Positions 6,547 through 12,734 of a stretch of DNA of 64,000 bases are shown here, piece after piece (positions within the stretch are counted from its first letter, which is position 1; every line of letters begins with the position of its first letter). Position numbers and translations under genes: made by a program. The notes below the pieces were generated by a model, which saw nothing but the letters and a program-made list of their open reading frames with translations, did not search any database and was not told where the DNA came from. This DNA comes from Gammaproteobacteria bacterium (GTDB taxonomy: Bacteria; Pseudomonadota; Gammaproteobacteria; Steroidobacterales; GCA-2729495), in assembly GCA_023383705.1 (NCBI GenBank), contig JAHDYM010000003.1:1-64000 (forward strand), read 5' to 3'.

Positions 6547-6594
6547 CCGGGCAGCCCCGGCCTGAAAGCCTGGCTACAGGCCGAGGCTGCCCGG
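6547..6594. terminator. Strong stem-loop between convergent genes (possible bidirectional terminator)
   Basis: CCGGGCAGCCCCGGCCTG / CAGGCCGAGGCTGCCCGG: 17 of 18 bp complementary, 12-nt loop, no U-tract. Confidence 0.55.
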
Positions 6595-8154
6595 ATTCAT
6601 CAGTCGGCCGGGGTCGACCACGCGCTTGATGCCCTCGAGCAGGGCCCAGGTGTCCGGCTGCAGCGATTCCCGGTACGGATAAAACCGGCCCAGCTGCTGG
6701 TGCACCGCACCGTGCTCCATGAAGATCCGCGCGAGGTCGGCGAGCATGCCGGCCACCGCCTCGCTGGCGCCCGCGACGGCCGGTAACCGGCGGTAGCGCT
6801 CGGCATCCGCGGCTTCCAGGTTGCGCAGGTGGAAGGCCTTCAGGGCGTCCGGATAATAAAAGGCCGGTTCGAAAATCATGTCCGTACCCGAGGAGCCGGT
6901 GAGATGCGAGGTGCGGATGTTGAAGCGTTCCAGCACCCCGGCCTTGCCGGCAAAGTAGGCCATGGTGGCCTCGAACACCGGTTTCAGGCGCGAGGCGGGC
7001 AGGCAGGCATGGATCGGTACCCAGCGTTCGCCGGCGTGGCCGACCAGGAATTCACCGACGTGCTTGAAGGGCATGGCACGGATGACCTTTGGAATGACCG
7101 GCTCGATCTCGCGGCCCCGCGCCGCGGTGGCGATCCGTTTGATCTCGCGCAGGCGCCAGGCCGCATCCGCATCGTGTGTCGCGTCAACGGTCATGTGCAG
7201 TGAGTAACGCACCCCATCGGCAAAGCCGCTGGCACCCGCTGCGGCAATGCTGGCGGCTTCCTTGAGTCCGCGCGCCAGGGAAGCCTGCGCCTTGATCACG
7301 CCGCCGAGCGCAGCCAGTCCGCTCTTCAGGTCCTTGACGATGGTGCGCTGGCCGTTGAGATAGGGGTCCAGCCCAAAGCACTCGGCAGCCAGTCGTGCCC
7401 GGCCGATTTCCGTCTGCGCATCGACCATGTCGTGAAAGCTGTCGAAGGCAAAGGAAGCGTAACCCGTGCAGGCCGGCTCCCGGATCAGGCGGATGGTGGC
7501 CTCGACCTTCACGCCGAGCGCGCCCGTGTCGGATAAAAACAGGCCAGTGAGGTCGGGACCGTAGTGGCGGAAGAACGGCTGCCCGCCCCGATTTGCGCCC
7601 GAGCCGGTACGGACCAGGCGGCCATCGGCCAGTGCGACCTCGAGGCCAAGCACGCTCTCGGCCACCGTGCCCCAGGTGGCCGAACCGTAGAACATGCTGT
7701 TCTGTGACAGGGCTCCCCCGACGGTGGCAAACATGCCGGACATGGGGCCGAAGTAGGGCGTGCGCAGTCCCTTCGCTTTCAGGGCTTCGTAAAGCTGCAT
7801 CCAGGTGCAGCCCGCCTCGGCGGTGATGTAGAGGTCTTCCGCATTGATCTCGACGATGCGGTTGAGGTCACGACAGTCGACGAGCACGGACTTCCCGAGG
7901 TGCGGAACGTAGCCGCGCGTATAGGACATGCCGCCGCCGCGGGGTATTACGGCATGGCCGGCAGCGCTGATGGCGGCCAGTGCCGCGCCGAGTTGCTGCC
8001 TGTTTTCCGGGCGTATGGCCACGGCTGCAACCGCGTCATCCCAGAAGGCATCCTGTGACAGGTAGGCAAGTTCCTCGCGGTCGCTGACCAGGCGTGCCGG
8101 CCCGACGATGGTGGCGAGTATCCGCTGCAGCTGTTCAGTGCCAGGCTCGTTCAT
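6574..8154 (-). CDS. FAD-linked oxidase (vanillyl-alcohol oxidase / GlcD-like family)
   Basis: VIPRGGGMSYTRGYVPHLGKSVLVDCRDLNRIVEINAEDLYITAEAGCTWMQLYEALKAKGL; FAD_binding_4-like N-terminus. Confidence 0.85.
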   Translation of the reverse strand: MNEPGTEQLQRILATIVGPARLVSDREELAYLSQDAFWDDAVAAVAIRPENRQQLGAALAAISAAGHAVIPRGGGMSYTRGYVPHLGKSVLVDCRDLNRIVEINAEDLYITAEAGCTWMQLYEALKAKGLRTPYFGPMSGMFATVGGALSQNSMFYGSATWGTVAESVLGLEVALADGRLVRTGSGANRGGQPFFRHYGPDLTGLFLSDTGALGVKVEATIRLIREPACTGYASFAFDSFHDMVDAQTEIGRARLAAECFGLDPYLNGQRTIVKDLKSGLAALGGVIKAQASLARGLKEAASIAAAGASGFADGVRYSLHMTVDATHDADAAWRLREIKRIATAARGREIEPVIPKVIRAMPFKHVGEFLVGHAGERWVPIHACLPASRLKPVFEATMAYFAGKAGVLERFNIRTSHLTGSSGTDMIFEPAFYYPDALKAFHLRNLEAADAERYRRLPAVAGASEAVAGMLADLARIFMEHGAVHQQLGRFYPYRESLQPDTWALLEGIKRVVDPGRLMNPGSLGL

Positions 8155-8189
8155 GGAGGCTGCTTCCTGCGTGTCGGTTTCCGTTGTCT

Positions 8190-8231
8190 ATACTAGGCAG
8201 CGGGCATCCCCGCCCCATTGATGCATATCAA
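8190..8231 (-). promoter_or_regulatory. FNR box (8218..8231) plus -10-like TAGTAT (8195..8190) for the FAD-linked oxidase
   Basis: TTGATGCATATCAA; box centre is 41.5 bp upstream of inferred +1 at 8183. Confidence 0.75.
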
Positions 8232-8261
8232 TCCTTCCGGGTTGCGGAGTCCCTGCAGACG

Positions 8262-9023
8262 ATGAGCATCGCTCCATATGCCAGCCTGCCCTGCAGTCGC
8301 TGCGTGGCGCGGGAAAGCACACTGTGTGCGAGCCTGGCCGACGATGACATGCATCGCCTGTACGGACTTGCCACCGGGCAGCGCTTCGAGGCAGGTGGCC
8401 TCCTGCTGCGGCAGGAGGGGCCGGCCGACCACGTATTCAGCCTCCGCTCGGGCCATGCCAACGTGTTCAGGCTCACGGCCGACGGCAAGCGACAGATACT
8501 CGCGTTTCTGTTCCCCGGTGACTTCGTGGGCTTCACCTCCGAAGACAACTATCACTACGGGGTTGCCGCCATAACCCCTGTCGAGGCCTGCCGCTTCGAA
8601 CGGACCCGGCTGGAGCTGCTGATCGAGGAATTTCCCCGCATGGATCGCAAGCTGCGTTTTACGCTGACGCGGGCCATGGACGCATCCTTCGAGCTGCTGT
8701 TTACGCTGGGGCGGAAGGACGCATTGCAGAAGGTGGCCTCGTTTCTCTGGTACATCAGCTACCGGCAGCGCAAGCTGGGCCAGCCGGACAACCCGGTGCA
8801 TCTGCCGATGCGGCGGGCCGACATCGCGGACTTCATGGGGCTCACCGTCGAAACCGTCAGCCGCGCACTGAGCTTGCTGAAACAGATGAAGGCGATTCGC
8901 CTGCGCAGTGCCTACGAGGTGGAGATCGTCGACACCGACCGCCTGCGTTCACTGGCCATCATCGTTGCCGAACCGGCGCCCTGGCTGCACGAAGACCCGG
9001 ACTACTATCCGCACAAGGATTAG
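8262..9023 (+). CDS. Crp/Fnr family regulator, FNR-type with N-terminal cysteine cluster
   Basis: CSRCVARESTLC (C-x2-C-x7-C), further Cys in VEACRF, cNMP-binding-like core, HTH ADIADFMGLTVETVSRALSLLKQ with E-x2-SR. Confidence 0.9.
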   Translation: MSIAPYASLPCSRCVARESTLCASLADDDMHRLYGLATGQRFEAGGLLLRQEGPADHVFSLRSGHANVFRLTADGKRQILAFLFPGDFVGFTSEDNYHYGVAAITPVEACRFERTRLELLIEEFPRMDRKLRFTLTRAMDASFELLFTLGRKDALQKVASFLWYISYRQRKLGQPDNPVHLPMRRADIADFMGLTVETVSRALSLLKQMKAIRLRSAYEVEIVDTDRLRSLAIIVAEPAPWLHEDPDYYPHKD

Positions 9024-9040
9024 TCGCGCGAGCAGCGACA

Positions 9041-10102
9041 TCAGCCAGGCAGGTGTTCCGGATCCGGAGCCACGCGACAGATCTTTACGCCGGTATTGCC
9101 ACCGGTGAACAGGCTCGCCAGCGCGGCCGGCATCGTTTCAAGCCCCTGTGACTCGTCCTCGGTGGCCTTCAGCACACCCTGCCGGTACCAGCGCAGCAGA
9201 TTGCCCTCCGCTTCGGCATACCGGTCCCAGTAGTCAAAGAGCACGTAACCTTCCATGCGGGCCCGCTTGTACACCATGCGCTGATAGTTGATTGGCCCAT
9301 GGTGCGTGCCTGGCGCGTAGTCAGTGGAAATGAAGCCGCAGATCACGATCCGTGCGTGCATGGCCAGCTGTCCCAGCGCTGCGTTGAGGGTATCGCCGCC
9401 GACATTGTCGAAAAACACATCGATGCCGTCCGGAAAAAGCTCCGCAAGGCGTTCGGGGACATTCTCGGTCCGGTAGTTGATCGCCGCGTCGTAACCCAGT
9501 GTTTCGCGCAACCAGCGGCACTTCGCCTCCGTGCCGGCGGTGCCCACCACGACACCTGCGCCACAGATGCGGGCTATCTGCCCGGCTATGGAACCGATGC
9601 CGCCGGCAGCTCCGGAAACCAGCACCTTGTCGCCGGGTTTCAGCTTGCCGATGTCCAGCAGGCCAAAGTAAGCGGTAGCTCCCGCCTGACCCAGTACGCC
9701 CAGCTGGGTCGAAAGCGGCCGCAGCGGGTTGGTCACCTTCCTGGTGCTGAACACGAACTCCTTGCCGCGCGGATGCTGGATCGAGTAGTCCTGCCAGCCG
9801 AGCGAGCCTATGAACATATCCCCGACCTGGTAATCCGGGTGCCGGGACGCGACGATCTCGCCCACGCCGCGGCCACGCATCACGGCACCAACTGGAAGGT
9901 TCTCCAGGAAGTCATTGTGGTTTTTTTCCAGATAGCCACGCTGTGCGGGCACGGGCGCCAGGCAAATGGTGCGTACCAGGAACTGTCCTTCGTCCGGTTC
10001 GCGCACGGCTTCGCTGGTCCATGTGAAGTGCTCGGGTCCGATCACTTCGTCGCGGCGTGGATAGCGCGCAACGCGCCATTGCCTGTTTGTCCCGGGATTC
10101 AT
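9041..10102 (-). CDS. NADP-dependent medium-chain oxidoreductase (enoyl / 2-alkenal / prostaglandin reductase-like)
   Basis: VLVSGAAGGIGSIAGQIARICGAGVVVGTAGTEAKCRWL; MNPGTNRQWRVARYPR start. Confidence 0.88.
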   Translation of the reverse strand: MNPGTNRQWRVARYPRRDEVIGPEHFTWTSEAVREPDEGQFLVRTICLAPVPAQRGYLEKNHNDFLENLPVGAVMRGRGVGEIVASRHPDYQVGDMFIGSLGWQDYSIQHPRGKEFVFSTRKVTNPLRPLSTQLGVLGQAGATAYFGLLDIGKLKPGDKVLVSGAAGGIGSIAGQIARICGAGVVVGTAGTEAKCRWLRETLGYDAAINYRTENVPERLAELFPDGIDVFFDNVGGDTLNAALGQLAMHARIVICGFISTDYAPGTHHGPINYQRMVYKRARMEGYVLFDYWDRYAEAEGNLLRWYRQGVLKATEDESQGLETMPAALASLFTGGNTGVKICRVAPDPEHLPG

Positions 10103-10188
10103 GCGATTCTCCGTACTCCAGCTGAGCGGGCAGAGCCCGTCATGTTCCTGCCCCGCAGGGATGCTAGGGATCGCGCCCACCGTTACCA

Positions 10189-10202
10189 TTGATATGAATC
10201 AA
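10189..10202. promoter_or_regulatory. FNR box between divergent oxidoreductase and alpha/beta-hydrolase genes
   Basis: TTGATATGAATCAA, perfect TTGAT-N4-ATCAA. Confidence 0.75.
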
Positions 10203-10259
10203 TGAACAATGCAGGCGCGAGCCCTGAAAGTGCCAAACCAACCCGGCCATGACAGCCAT

Positions 10260-11969
10260 ATGCAGACCACGATTCATCGCCAGTTCGTGACGGTCACCGG
10301 CCGATGGGGCCGGCGTCAGGTTCACTGCCGGTTTGGCGGTTCAGGACCCCTGCTGCTGATGCTGCATCAATCACCGCAGTCTTCCCGGGAGCTGCTGCCC
10401 CTGATGCAGGCATGGTCCGGGTATTTCACCGTGCTTGCCCCGGATTCTCCCGGCTATGGCCTGTCGGACTCCCTGGGCGTCGAGGAAGCGACGCTCGGTG
10501 ATTTTGCCGAGGCGACGCTCGAGTTCCTGGATGCGATCGGGGCTGGCTGCTTTTGCGTCTACGGCTTTCACACGGGCGGCATGATCGGTATCGCACTTGC
10601 GGAACGATATCCGGATCGCGTGCGCGCACTGGCGTGCAACGGCGTCGCCGTGCTGGCCGGGGCGGAGTTGAGGGAAATCCTTGCACAATACCTGCCGCGT
10701 TTTGAGCCATGCTGGGACGGCTCGCATCTGGCATGGCTGTGGGCCCGGTTGCGCGAGCAAACGATATTTTTTCCCTGGCACAAGCGCGCTGCCGCGTCAC
10801 GCATGAATTTCCCGATGCCGCCACCGGAGCGCCTGCAGGCTGGCGTGCTGGAGTTCCTGCGCGCTGCCGATCACTACCATGTGGCCTACCGGGCGGCCTT
10901 TCAGTACCCGGTCGCCGAGGTGGTACGGACGCTGCGGGTGCCCGCTCTGCTGACAGCGGCGGCCCGGGATCCGCTCTGTCCGCATCTTGACCGGATCACC
11001 GCTGCCGCGCCGTCGGTGGAGATCACGCCATCGGCGACACCGGAAGAAGCGGTACAGCGTTGCCTCGAGCATGTGCGTGCGCACGCGGCTGATCGAGCCG
11101 CGCTGCGGATTGCCAGCAAGCCGGACGATTTGCGCCTCTGGCCGGAGGTGCTCGGCGTGAACGGAACCCGACTGCAGCTGTTGCGGGGTGCCCGCCGCGG
11201 AAGGCCGGTACTGCTGCTCCACGAAGCGGGTGGCTCCACGCGCACGATGCGCACACTTGCCGACGCCCTGGCCGACCACTGCGAAGTGCTGACCCTCGAC
11301 CTGCCCGGTCATGGGGAGTCGGACCCATGGTGGACTGGCGAGCCGCTTGGTGTTGGTGGTGCAGCAGATGCCGTGATCGCGGTACTTGAGTCACTCGGCA
11401 TGCCGCCACTCGACATACTCGGTGTCGAGGCTGGCGGGATCGTGGCGCTCGAAGTCGCCAGCCGGGCACCCTCACGCGTGTCCCGGGTGGTGCTGGTCGA
11501 TCCGCCTGTCTGCGAACCTGAACTTGCCGCTGCAATCCGCACCGAGGGCTTGCCCTCCCTGGCGCCGGACTGGCACGGCGGCCACCTGTCGCGCTGCTGG
11601 CACATGCAGCGCGACGCACGCCTCTACTTCCCGTGGTTCCGCCGCGATCCTTCGGGCATACGCGAGGGTGAGCCCGATCTCGATGCGCGGGGCATCCAGC
11701 TGGAGGTCACGGAGCGCCTGAAAGCCGAAGGGGCGTGGCAATCGCTGCTGGCTGATGCCCTGTCGCCAGGCATTGAGGTGCGAATAACAGCTGCCGGCAT
11801 CGAGCCTGTACTCGTCAGCACGGCGCGAAGTCCGTGGCGAAAGCGGCTTGTCGCGCTGGCCGCCGAACCCGGCTGGCCCTGCGCCCTGCTGTCGGCGGAG
11901 CCTTCGGCCAGCTGCGCTGCGCTGCTTGCCTTGTTGTCCGGCCCGGATACCTGCCGTGAATCCCGCTGA
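10260..11969 (+). CDS. Tandem alpha/beta-hydrolase fold protein (two fused domains)
   Basis: Domain 1 PLLLMLHQSP..FCVYGFHTGGMIGIALAERYPDRV; domain 2 PVLLLHEAGGS..LDILGVEAGGIVALEVASRAPSRV. Alternative start 10209. Confidence 0.82.
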   Translation: MQTTIHRQFVTVTGRWGRRQVHCRFGGSGPLLLMLHQSPQSSRELLPLMQAWSGYFTVLAPDSPGYGLSDSLGVEEATLGDFAEATLEFLDAIGAGCFCVYGFHTGGMIGIALAERYPDRVRALACNGVAVLAGAELREILAQYLPRFEPCWDGSHLAWLWARLREQTIFFPWHKRAAASRMNFPMPPPERLQAGVLEFLRAADHYHVAYRAAFQYPVAEVVRTLRVPALLTAAARDPLCPHLDRITAAAPSVEITPSATPEEAVQRCLEHVRAHAADRAALRIASKPDDLRLWPEVLGVNGTRLQLLRGARRGRPVLLLHEAGGSTRTMRTLADALADHCEVLTLDLPGHGESDPWWTGEPLGVGGAADAVIAVLESLGMPPLDILGVEAGGIVALEVASRAPSRVSRVVLVDPPVCEPELAAAIRTEGLPSLAPDWHGGHLSRCWHMQRDARLYFPWFRRDPSGIREGEPDLDARGIQLEVTERLKAEGAWQSLLADALSPGIEVRITAAGIEPVLVSTARSPWRKRLVALAAEPGWPCALLSAEPSASCAALLALLSGPDTCRESR

Positions 11970-11987: not shown

Positions 11988-12734
11988 GTGCATGAGGGGG
12001 CAATTGCTGCCCGGACCTTGCCGGGGTGGTTTGCAGGCTTCGAACCAGGACACGTCGGGGTAGCCAGTCTGGATACACATCTCCTGTGGGCCTATGTCCA
12101 CATCGTACTGTTCGTCTACTGGCTGGGTGCCGATGTCGGCCTGTACCTGGTGATGATCTTTGCCAGGAACCCATCATTGAGCTTCGAGACCCGGGCCACG
12201 CTGATCAGGCTTGCCTTCTATATCGATCTGTTCCCGCGCGTCTGTTTCGCGTTGATCCTGCCGGTAGGGATGCAGCTTGTCCGCGGCACCGGCTTGTATC
12301 CGGTTTCCGGGAGGTTGCTGGCGCTCGCCTGGACTGCCGGGGTCCTGTGGAGCGTCCTGCACCTGGCTTTGATCAGGTTCAAGGGCACGAACATTGCCCG
12401 CAGATTGCGGCTCATCAACCAGGTCTACGAGCTGTTGATGGGTGGCTTTTTCATCAGTGTCGGCTTCGCCTCGCTCACAACCGGAGCGCCGATCGGTGTC
12501 GAGTGGTTTGCCGCAAAGCTGCTGCTGTTCGGCCTGATCTTCTGGGTGATCCTCGGGATCGACGTGGTGTTCCAGCCTTTCAGCATGATCCTGCGGATGG
12601 GGCCCGGCGGCTCGACGGTCGAGAAAGAACGGGCCGTGACGCGGGCGACAAACATCACGATGGCCTGGGCAATCCTGCTCTATGTACTGGTACTGGCCGT
12701 TGCCTTTCTCGGCAAGCTGAAACCGCTGTGGTGA
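11988..12734 (+). CDS. Uncharacterised multi-pass membrane protein (paralog A)
   Basis: Several hydrophobic segments; AYVHIVLFVYWLGADVGLYL, EWFAAKLLLFGLIF shared with 58327..59001. Confidence 0.8.
   Translation: MHEGAIAARTLPGWFAGFEPGHVGVASLDTHLLWAYVHIVLFVYWLGADVGLYLVMIFARNPSLSFETRATLIRLAFYIDLFPRVCFALILPVGMQLVRGTGLYPVSGRLLALAWTAGVLWSVLHLALIRFKGTNIARRLRLINQVYELLMGGFFISVGFASLTTGAPIGVEWFAAKLLLFGLIFWVILGIDVVFQPFSMILRMGPGGSTVEKERAVTRATNITMAWAILLYVLVLAVAFLGKLKPLW

Follow-up and report, generated by a model that had tools for sequence, protein, structure and literature searches.

Regulators of the FNR family most commonly act as class II activators, from a site centred at about -41.5 relative to the transcription start (PMC3688515). 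The alphaproteobacterial FnrN/FnrL proteins combine a Cx2Cx7C motif and a fourth cysteine with an ETVSR recognition helix, and operate from class II sites near -41.5 that have a TTGAT-N4-ATCAA core and a CAANG flank (PMC7713065, PMC4999443). The displaced third cysteine is the mark of the FnrN subgroup (PMC7713065), and TTGANCNNGATCAANG is the FnrN/FixK consensus (PMC4999443). AadR of Rhodopseudomonas palustris and AcpR of Azoarcus sp. CIB are FNR-type activators of aromatic catabolism, with AadR on the FnrN branch (PMC4999443), and AcpR, whose site is centred at -41.5, drives benzoate genes (PMC6678401). The gammaproteobacterium Pseudomonas putida has several FNR proteins with one box in common (ANR, PP_3233 and PP_3287), which show 41-53% identity to E. 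coli FNR, vary in the region of the Fe-S cluster and have been studied for their oxygen reactivity; the available part of that report describes no local operator pair (PMC4505428).

The locus described here lies in the window, by which we mean the whole 64,000-nucleotide stretch of DNA that was analysed. Its regulator resembles FnrN/FnrL in its cysteines, its recognition helix, the core and flank of its putative boxes and their class II spacing. However, it is found in a gammaproteobacterium and, whereas FnrN/FnrL govern broad respiratory and nitrogen regulons, it appears to serve one catabolic cluster and not the whole cell. In being an FNR-type factor for catabolic genes it would be comparable to AadR and AcpR, although those proteins control anaerobic pathways and the cluster related to the window includes oxygenases. 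The likeness to P. putida extends to the host class and to the presence of several FNR proteins with a common box, but the protein encoded in the window is no more than a distant relative of FNR and has the FnrN cysteine spacing. The switch is of a known kind, and the FnrN-type local regulon proposed here is a new example of it: a simple two-operator system with exact predicted transcription starts near 8183 and 10154.

A rare FnrN-like regulator

The regulator has Pfam matches to cNMP_binding (7.6e-16) and HTH_Crp_2 (4.9e-16) and matches the FNR and FixK2 structures. On the basis of its four cysteines (C-x2-C-x7-C plus one) and its E..SR helix, features read from the translation, we can identify it as FnrN-like and as a member of the FNR family of the CRP/FNR superfamily. 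The Cx2Cx7C motif and the E..SR helix, the latter in TVETVSR and TIETVSR forms among others, are kept in four of four relatives, and the fourth cysteine is visible in their translations. A tree groups the protein with FnrN-type and FixK-like proteins and separates it, with a 100/100 split, from the canonical Anr of its own bacterial family. A named equivalog was rejected as its identity, since the best NCBIfam model (FnrL) gave 142 bits against a cut-off of 300 and the Fnr model 87 bits against 228, both far under the curated thresholds; the protein is a family member still. An AlphaFold model built from two sequences had a mean pLDDT of 50.7.

Few genomes encode this regulator. A survey of 40 family and 396 order genomes found it only in G015 (72% identity), G006 (52%) and G009 (45%), no further copy emerged when 369 class genomes were included, and a phylum sample held only distant FnrN-type proteins (up to 41% identity).

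Two candidate operators with class II spacing

A first-pass annotation of this DNA had proposed that a perfect TTGAT-N4-ATCAA box is positioned for class II FNR activation of a flavin oxidase gene. The palindrome TTGATGCATATCAA is present exactly where it was reported (Table 1). With its centre (8224.5) placed at -41.5 on the minus strand, TAGTAT falls at -12 to -7, as had been claimed, and the predicted start leaves a leader of 28-29 nt before the flavin-gene ATG, in agreement with the 28 nt given earlier. An AGGA-type ribosome site stands just 5' of this ATG. On the opposite strand, the sequence TATACT (8189-8194) overlaps the flavin-gene -10 element, such that two opposing promoters could use one patch of DNA.

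A second box lies in the next divergent intergenic region, between the minus-strand reductase ATG (10102) and the plus-strand hydrolase ATG (10260), and is followed at the same spacing by TAGCAT before the reductase gene. This arrangement was absent from the first-pass annotation; with the box centred at -41.5, the reductase-gene start is predicted at about 10154. The hydrolase side of the box offers just a weak -10 element, TGAAAG. One further near-match in the window (12369-12382) was rejected as an operator because it falls inside the membrane-protein gene.

Table 1. Positions of the regulator gene, the two FNR-type boxes, the associated promoter elements and the neighbouring genes in the window. 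G015 is the related genome discussed in the text.
Feature	Position	Strand	Remarks
FAD-dependent enzyme, VAO/PCMH superfamily (oxidase or dehydrogenase)	6574..8154	-	predicted target 1; Pfam FAD_binding_4, 1.5e-32
Predicted flavin-gene transcription start	8183	-	deduced from geometry
-10 hexamer TAGTAT	8190..8195	-	separated by 22 bp from box 1, centred at -41.5; hexamer and spacing identical in G015
FNR-type box 1, TTGATGCATATCAA	8218..8231		common to the divergent flavin-enzyme and regulator genes; G015 counterpart TTGATATACATCAA
FNR/FnrN-type regulator	8262..9023	+	C11-x2-C14-x7-C22 plus C110; recognition helix TVETVSR
NADPH-dependent medium-chain reductase (curcumin-reductase-like)	9041..10102	-	predicted target 2; 74% identical to G015 ortholog
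-10 hexamer TAGCAT	10161..10166	-	separated by 22 bp from box 2, centred at -41.5
FNR-type box 2, TTGATATGAATCAA	10189..10202		between reductase and alpha/beta-hydrolase genes; matching place in G015 has TTGATTCACATCAA and TTGACATACATCAA
Tandem alpha/beta hydrolase	10260..11969	+	possible target of box 2; 51% identical in G015
Small membrane protein	11988..12734	+	3' of hydrolase; 64% identical to L092:6160-6825 (G015 cluster)

No other perfect box occurs in the whole assembly of 2,926,570 bases (2.93 Mb), and neither of the two is more than 2 kb from the regulator gene; a reversed-pattern control scan of the genome gave no match. Hexamers of the form TA...T that agree with TATAAT at four or more of six positions number four on both strands of the two divergent intergenic regions, and both of the minus-strand hexamers among them stand exactly 22 bp from a box. 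Could a palindrome have arisen by chance beside a chance TAGTAT? Short motifs do arise randomly, and the genome holds 60 sites that have no more than one mismatch, the two perfect ones counted in. The first-order Markov expectation from window composition, however, is 0.017 perfect boxes in 64 kb and about 0.8 in the genome, as opposed to the two observed in the same 2 kb by an FNR-type gene, and the boxes are conserved in a second genome. Coincidence is strongly disfavoured by this conservation, and we consider it extremely improbable. The best-looking one-mismatch site, C13:18557, lies within a transposon-type gene and was rejected; as this check covered one of the 60 sites, degenerate members of the regulon may still lie elsewhere.

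We regard the class II promoter geometry of the flavin gene as well supported, both by its conservation in G015 and by the second promoter in the window. The flavin gene stands as a predicted target, but the earlier description of a single-gene case was too narrow: the probable unit is a local regulon that includes two or more boxes.

Conservation of the arrangement

G015 is the only other genome in which the full gene set was found, with the order hydrolase, reductase, regulator, flavin enzyme as the mirror image of that in the window, and a search of related loci for ortholog clusters returned G015 alone; conservation of the full arrangement accordingly rests on one genome pair. The flavin enzymes are 71% identical (for the other genes see Table 1), and the membrane-protein homolog sits further along the same cluster in G015. 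Conservation of the box and its spacing had been suggested as a check on the first-pass annotation, and the G015 flavin promoter keeps the box at 13 of 14 positions together with the 22-bp gap and TAGTATA. The sequence of the gap itself is identical at just 11 of 22 positions.

Five perfect boxes occur in G015. One, on another contig, falls within a coding sequence, while the other four fall within about 20 kb around the regulator gene (C3:108494-128434), between genes or at their starts, close to those for, among others, a TonB receptor, two reductases, an amidohydrolase and a DUF1838 protein. In the reductase region there are two boxes, and the nearer one (with one mismatch) is followed by TAGAAT after a gap of 23 bp, not 22. 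The G015 boxes at the TonB receptor, amidohydrolase and luciferase-like genes have no convincing -10 element at class II distance. Given the altered gap and these boxes, not every site fits one mechanism. Two side observations concern the same cluster: a pair of boxes 33 bp apart occupies the reductase/amidohydrolase intergenic region (L033:8612-8658), and the perfect palindrome TTGATTTAAATCAA (L033:16422-16435) precedes the TonB-dependent receptor gene, with no clear -10 element at class II distance.

Outside these two genomes, boxes were missing where the regulator was missing. Reductase homologs in the regulator-less genomes G004 (67%) and G027 (60%) have no box, nor does a flavin-enzyme homolog (60%) in G636, another genome without the regulator; in G027 and G636 neither box nor regulator lies near the homologous gene. 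The promoter of a closer flavin-enzyme homolog, 85% identical and encoded in G001, is cut off by a contig end.

The probable reader of the boxes

A canonical Anr/FNR-like gene with a Cx2Cx5C motif is encoded in the same genome and on the same contig, 7 kb past the end of the window (C160:71233-72066, L037). Its product has the classical motif and an ETVSR helix, and the core box is common to FNR and FnrN, which would allow it to read the boxes, with the adjacent regulator using another site and the cluster forming part of a global anaerobic regulon. We think this improbable on several grounds. G015 carries the boxes but has no canonical Cx2Cx5C Anr ortholog, the best match (32%) being a FixK-like protein without the cysteines, which leaves the local regulator as the remaining candidate there. 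Conversely, G004 has a canonical Anr and the reductase homolog, yet neither regulator nor box. Perfect boxes are confined to the cluster, which would be unexpected for a global reader, and their flanking CAATG fits FnrN/FixK sites. Across the boxes of the window, L033 and L092, an ATCAATG flank matching the FnrN/FixK consensus is present in 9 of the 16 half-sites, where about 7% would be expected (binomial p about 4e-7). The local regulator is more likely to be the reader because of the G015 pattern, the pattern in G004, G027 and G636, and the ATCAATG flanks; the support for its binding is one of linkage and co-occurrence.

Proposed activation, with probable autorepression

Taken together, we consider it probable that the locus is a small, self-contained local regulon in which an FnrN-type [4Fe-4S] regulator uses two operators for class II activation, with autorepression from box 1 also probable. 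With the predicted Fe-S cluster intact, as at low oxygen, the regulator dimer would bind box 1 and box 2. From box 1, centred at -41.5, it would activate the flavin-enzyme gene in class II mode and from box 2, likewise, the reductase gene, and box 2 perhaps also acts on the hydrolase/membrane-protein operon. Bound to box 1, in or next to its own promoter or leader, the regulator would probably repress itself.

The first-pass annotation had noted that box 1, about 38 nt before the regulator ATG, is consistent with autorepression. The ATG at 8262 is 37.5 nt from the box centre, and the claim is plausible: the spacing between box and start codon is the same in the window and in G015, and four of four relatives, the more distant G006 and G009 among them, have an operator next to the regulator gene. 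Class II activation of the regulator from box 1 was rejected, as the start codon would fall at -4, before +1. Because a class II site facing the regulator is impossible, repression is the natural reading for that gene.

The same observations could be taken to mean that the regulator is mainly a repressor whose boxes block promoters read from both sides, the match to -41.5 being incidental. The plus-strand TATACT would place a regulator start near 8201, a short way upstream of box 1, the equal box-to-start-codon distance would fit, and in G006 and G009 the operators are at the regulator start. Set against this are the exact activator spacing at two separate window promoters and one in G015, and a sigma-70 scan of 7900-10500 that found no promoter having both hexamers, as expected of activator-dependent promoters. 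A predominantly repressive role is accordingly quite unlikely in our judgement.

Oxygen signal and cluster function

The predicted targets of the proposed activator look catabolic, comprising a flavin enzyme, a curcumin-reductase-like enzyme and hydrolases. The nearest solved chains to the flavin enzyme are D-lactate dehydrogenase, glycolate oxidase and p-cresol methylhydroxylase. Since this protein may be a dehydrogenase, the earlier statement that low oxygen induces an oxidase is not to be read literally; low-oxygen induction of the gene is itself something we infer from knowledge of the family only. The G015 cluster also encodes a UbiD-type decarboxylase, an AMP ligase, a TonB receptor, two VanA-like Rieske oxygenases and a CoA-transferase, and this gene content makes it likely that the substrate is aromatic or similar. 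Rieske oxygenases require oxygen, so micro-oxic control seems likelier than strict anaerobiosis. If the local control proposed here also applies to oxygenase clusters in relatives, an Fe-S oxygen sensor would be tuning oxygen-consuming catabolism in micro-oxic habitats.

The oxygenases of the G015 cluster also bear on the idea that the boxes do activate, yet the regulator senses oxygen in an unusual manner, being active in some air or responding to another signal such as NO. In four of four relatives, the residue after the second cysteine is Val, Ile, Leu or Ala and not the Ser24 of E. coli FNR, a position at which replacement alters FNR oxygen reactivity (PMC4505428). The cluster cysteines are nevertheless kept, and many other FnrN-type proteins likewise differ from Ser at this position. 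We treat an altered signal as possible but doubtful.

Operator and recognition helix in more distant relatives

The recognition helices of G006 and G009 read TSESVSR and TGESVSR, with Ser or Gly where the window protein (TVETVSR) has Val. Because CTGAT...ATCAG operators accompany these Ser/Gly helices, we suspect that operator and helix may have changed together, a tentative suggestion from a two-against-two comparison. The pairs would be Val/Ile with TTGAT...ATCAA and Ser/Gly with CTGAT...ATCAG, linking the helix residue before the invariant Glu to the outer base pair of the operator; a literature search on specificity residues found nothing. The broader notion is of a rare FnrN-type family whose members each serve a single catabolic cluster, with co-changing helix and operator and with oxygenase-dependent catabolism tuned by an Fe-S sensor when oxygen is low; this is speculative and we hold it only tentatively. 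The CTGAT-N4-ATCAG palindromes at the regulator start are located at L034:9884-9897 (G006) and L035:9926-9939 (G009), and the pattern is infrequent genome-wide, with two occurrences in G006 and nine in G009.
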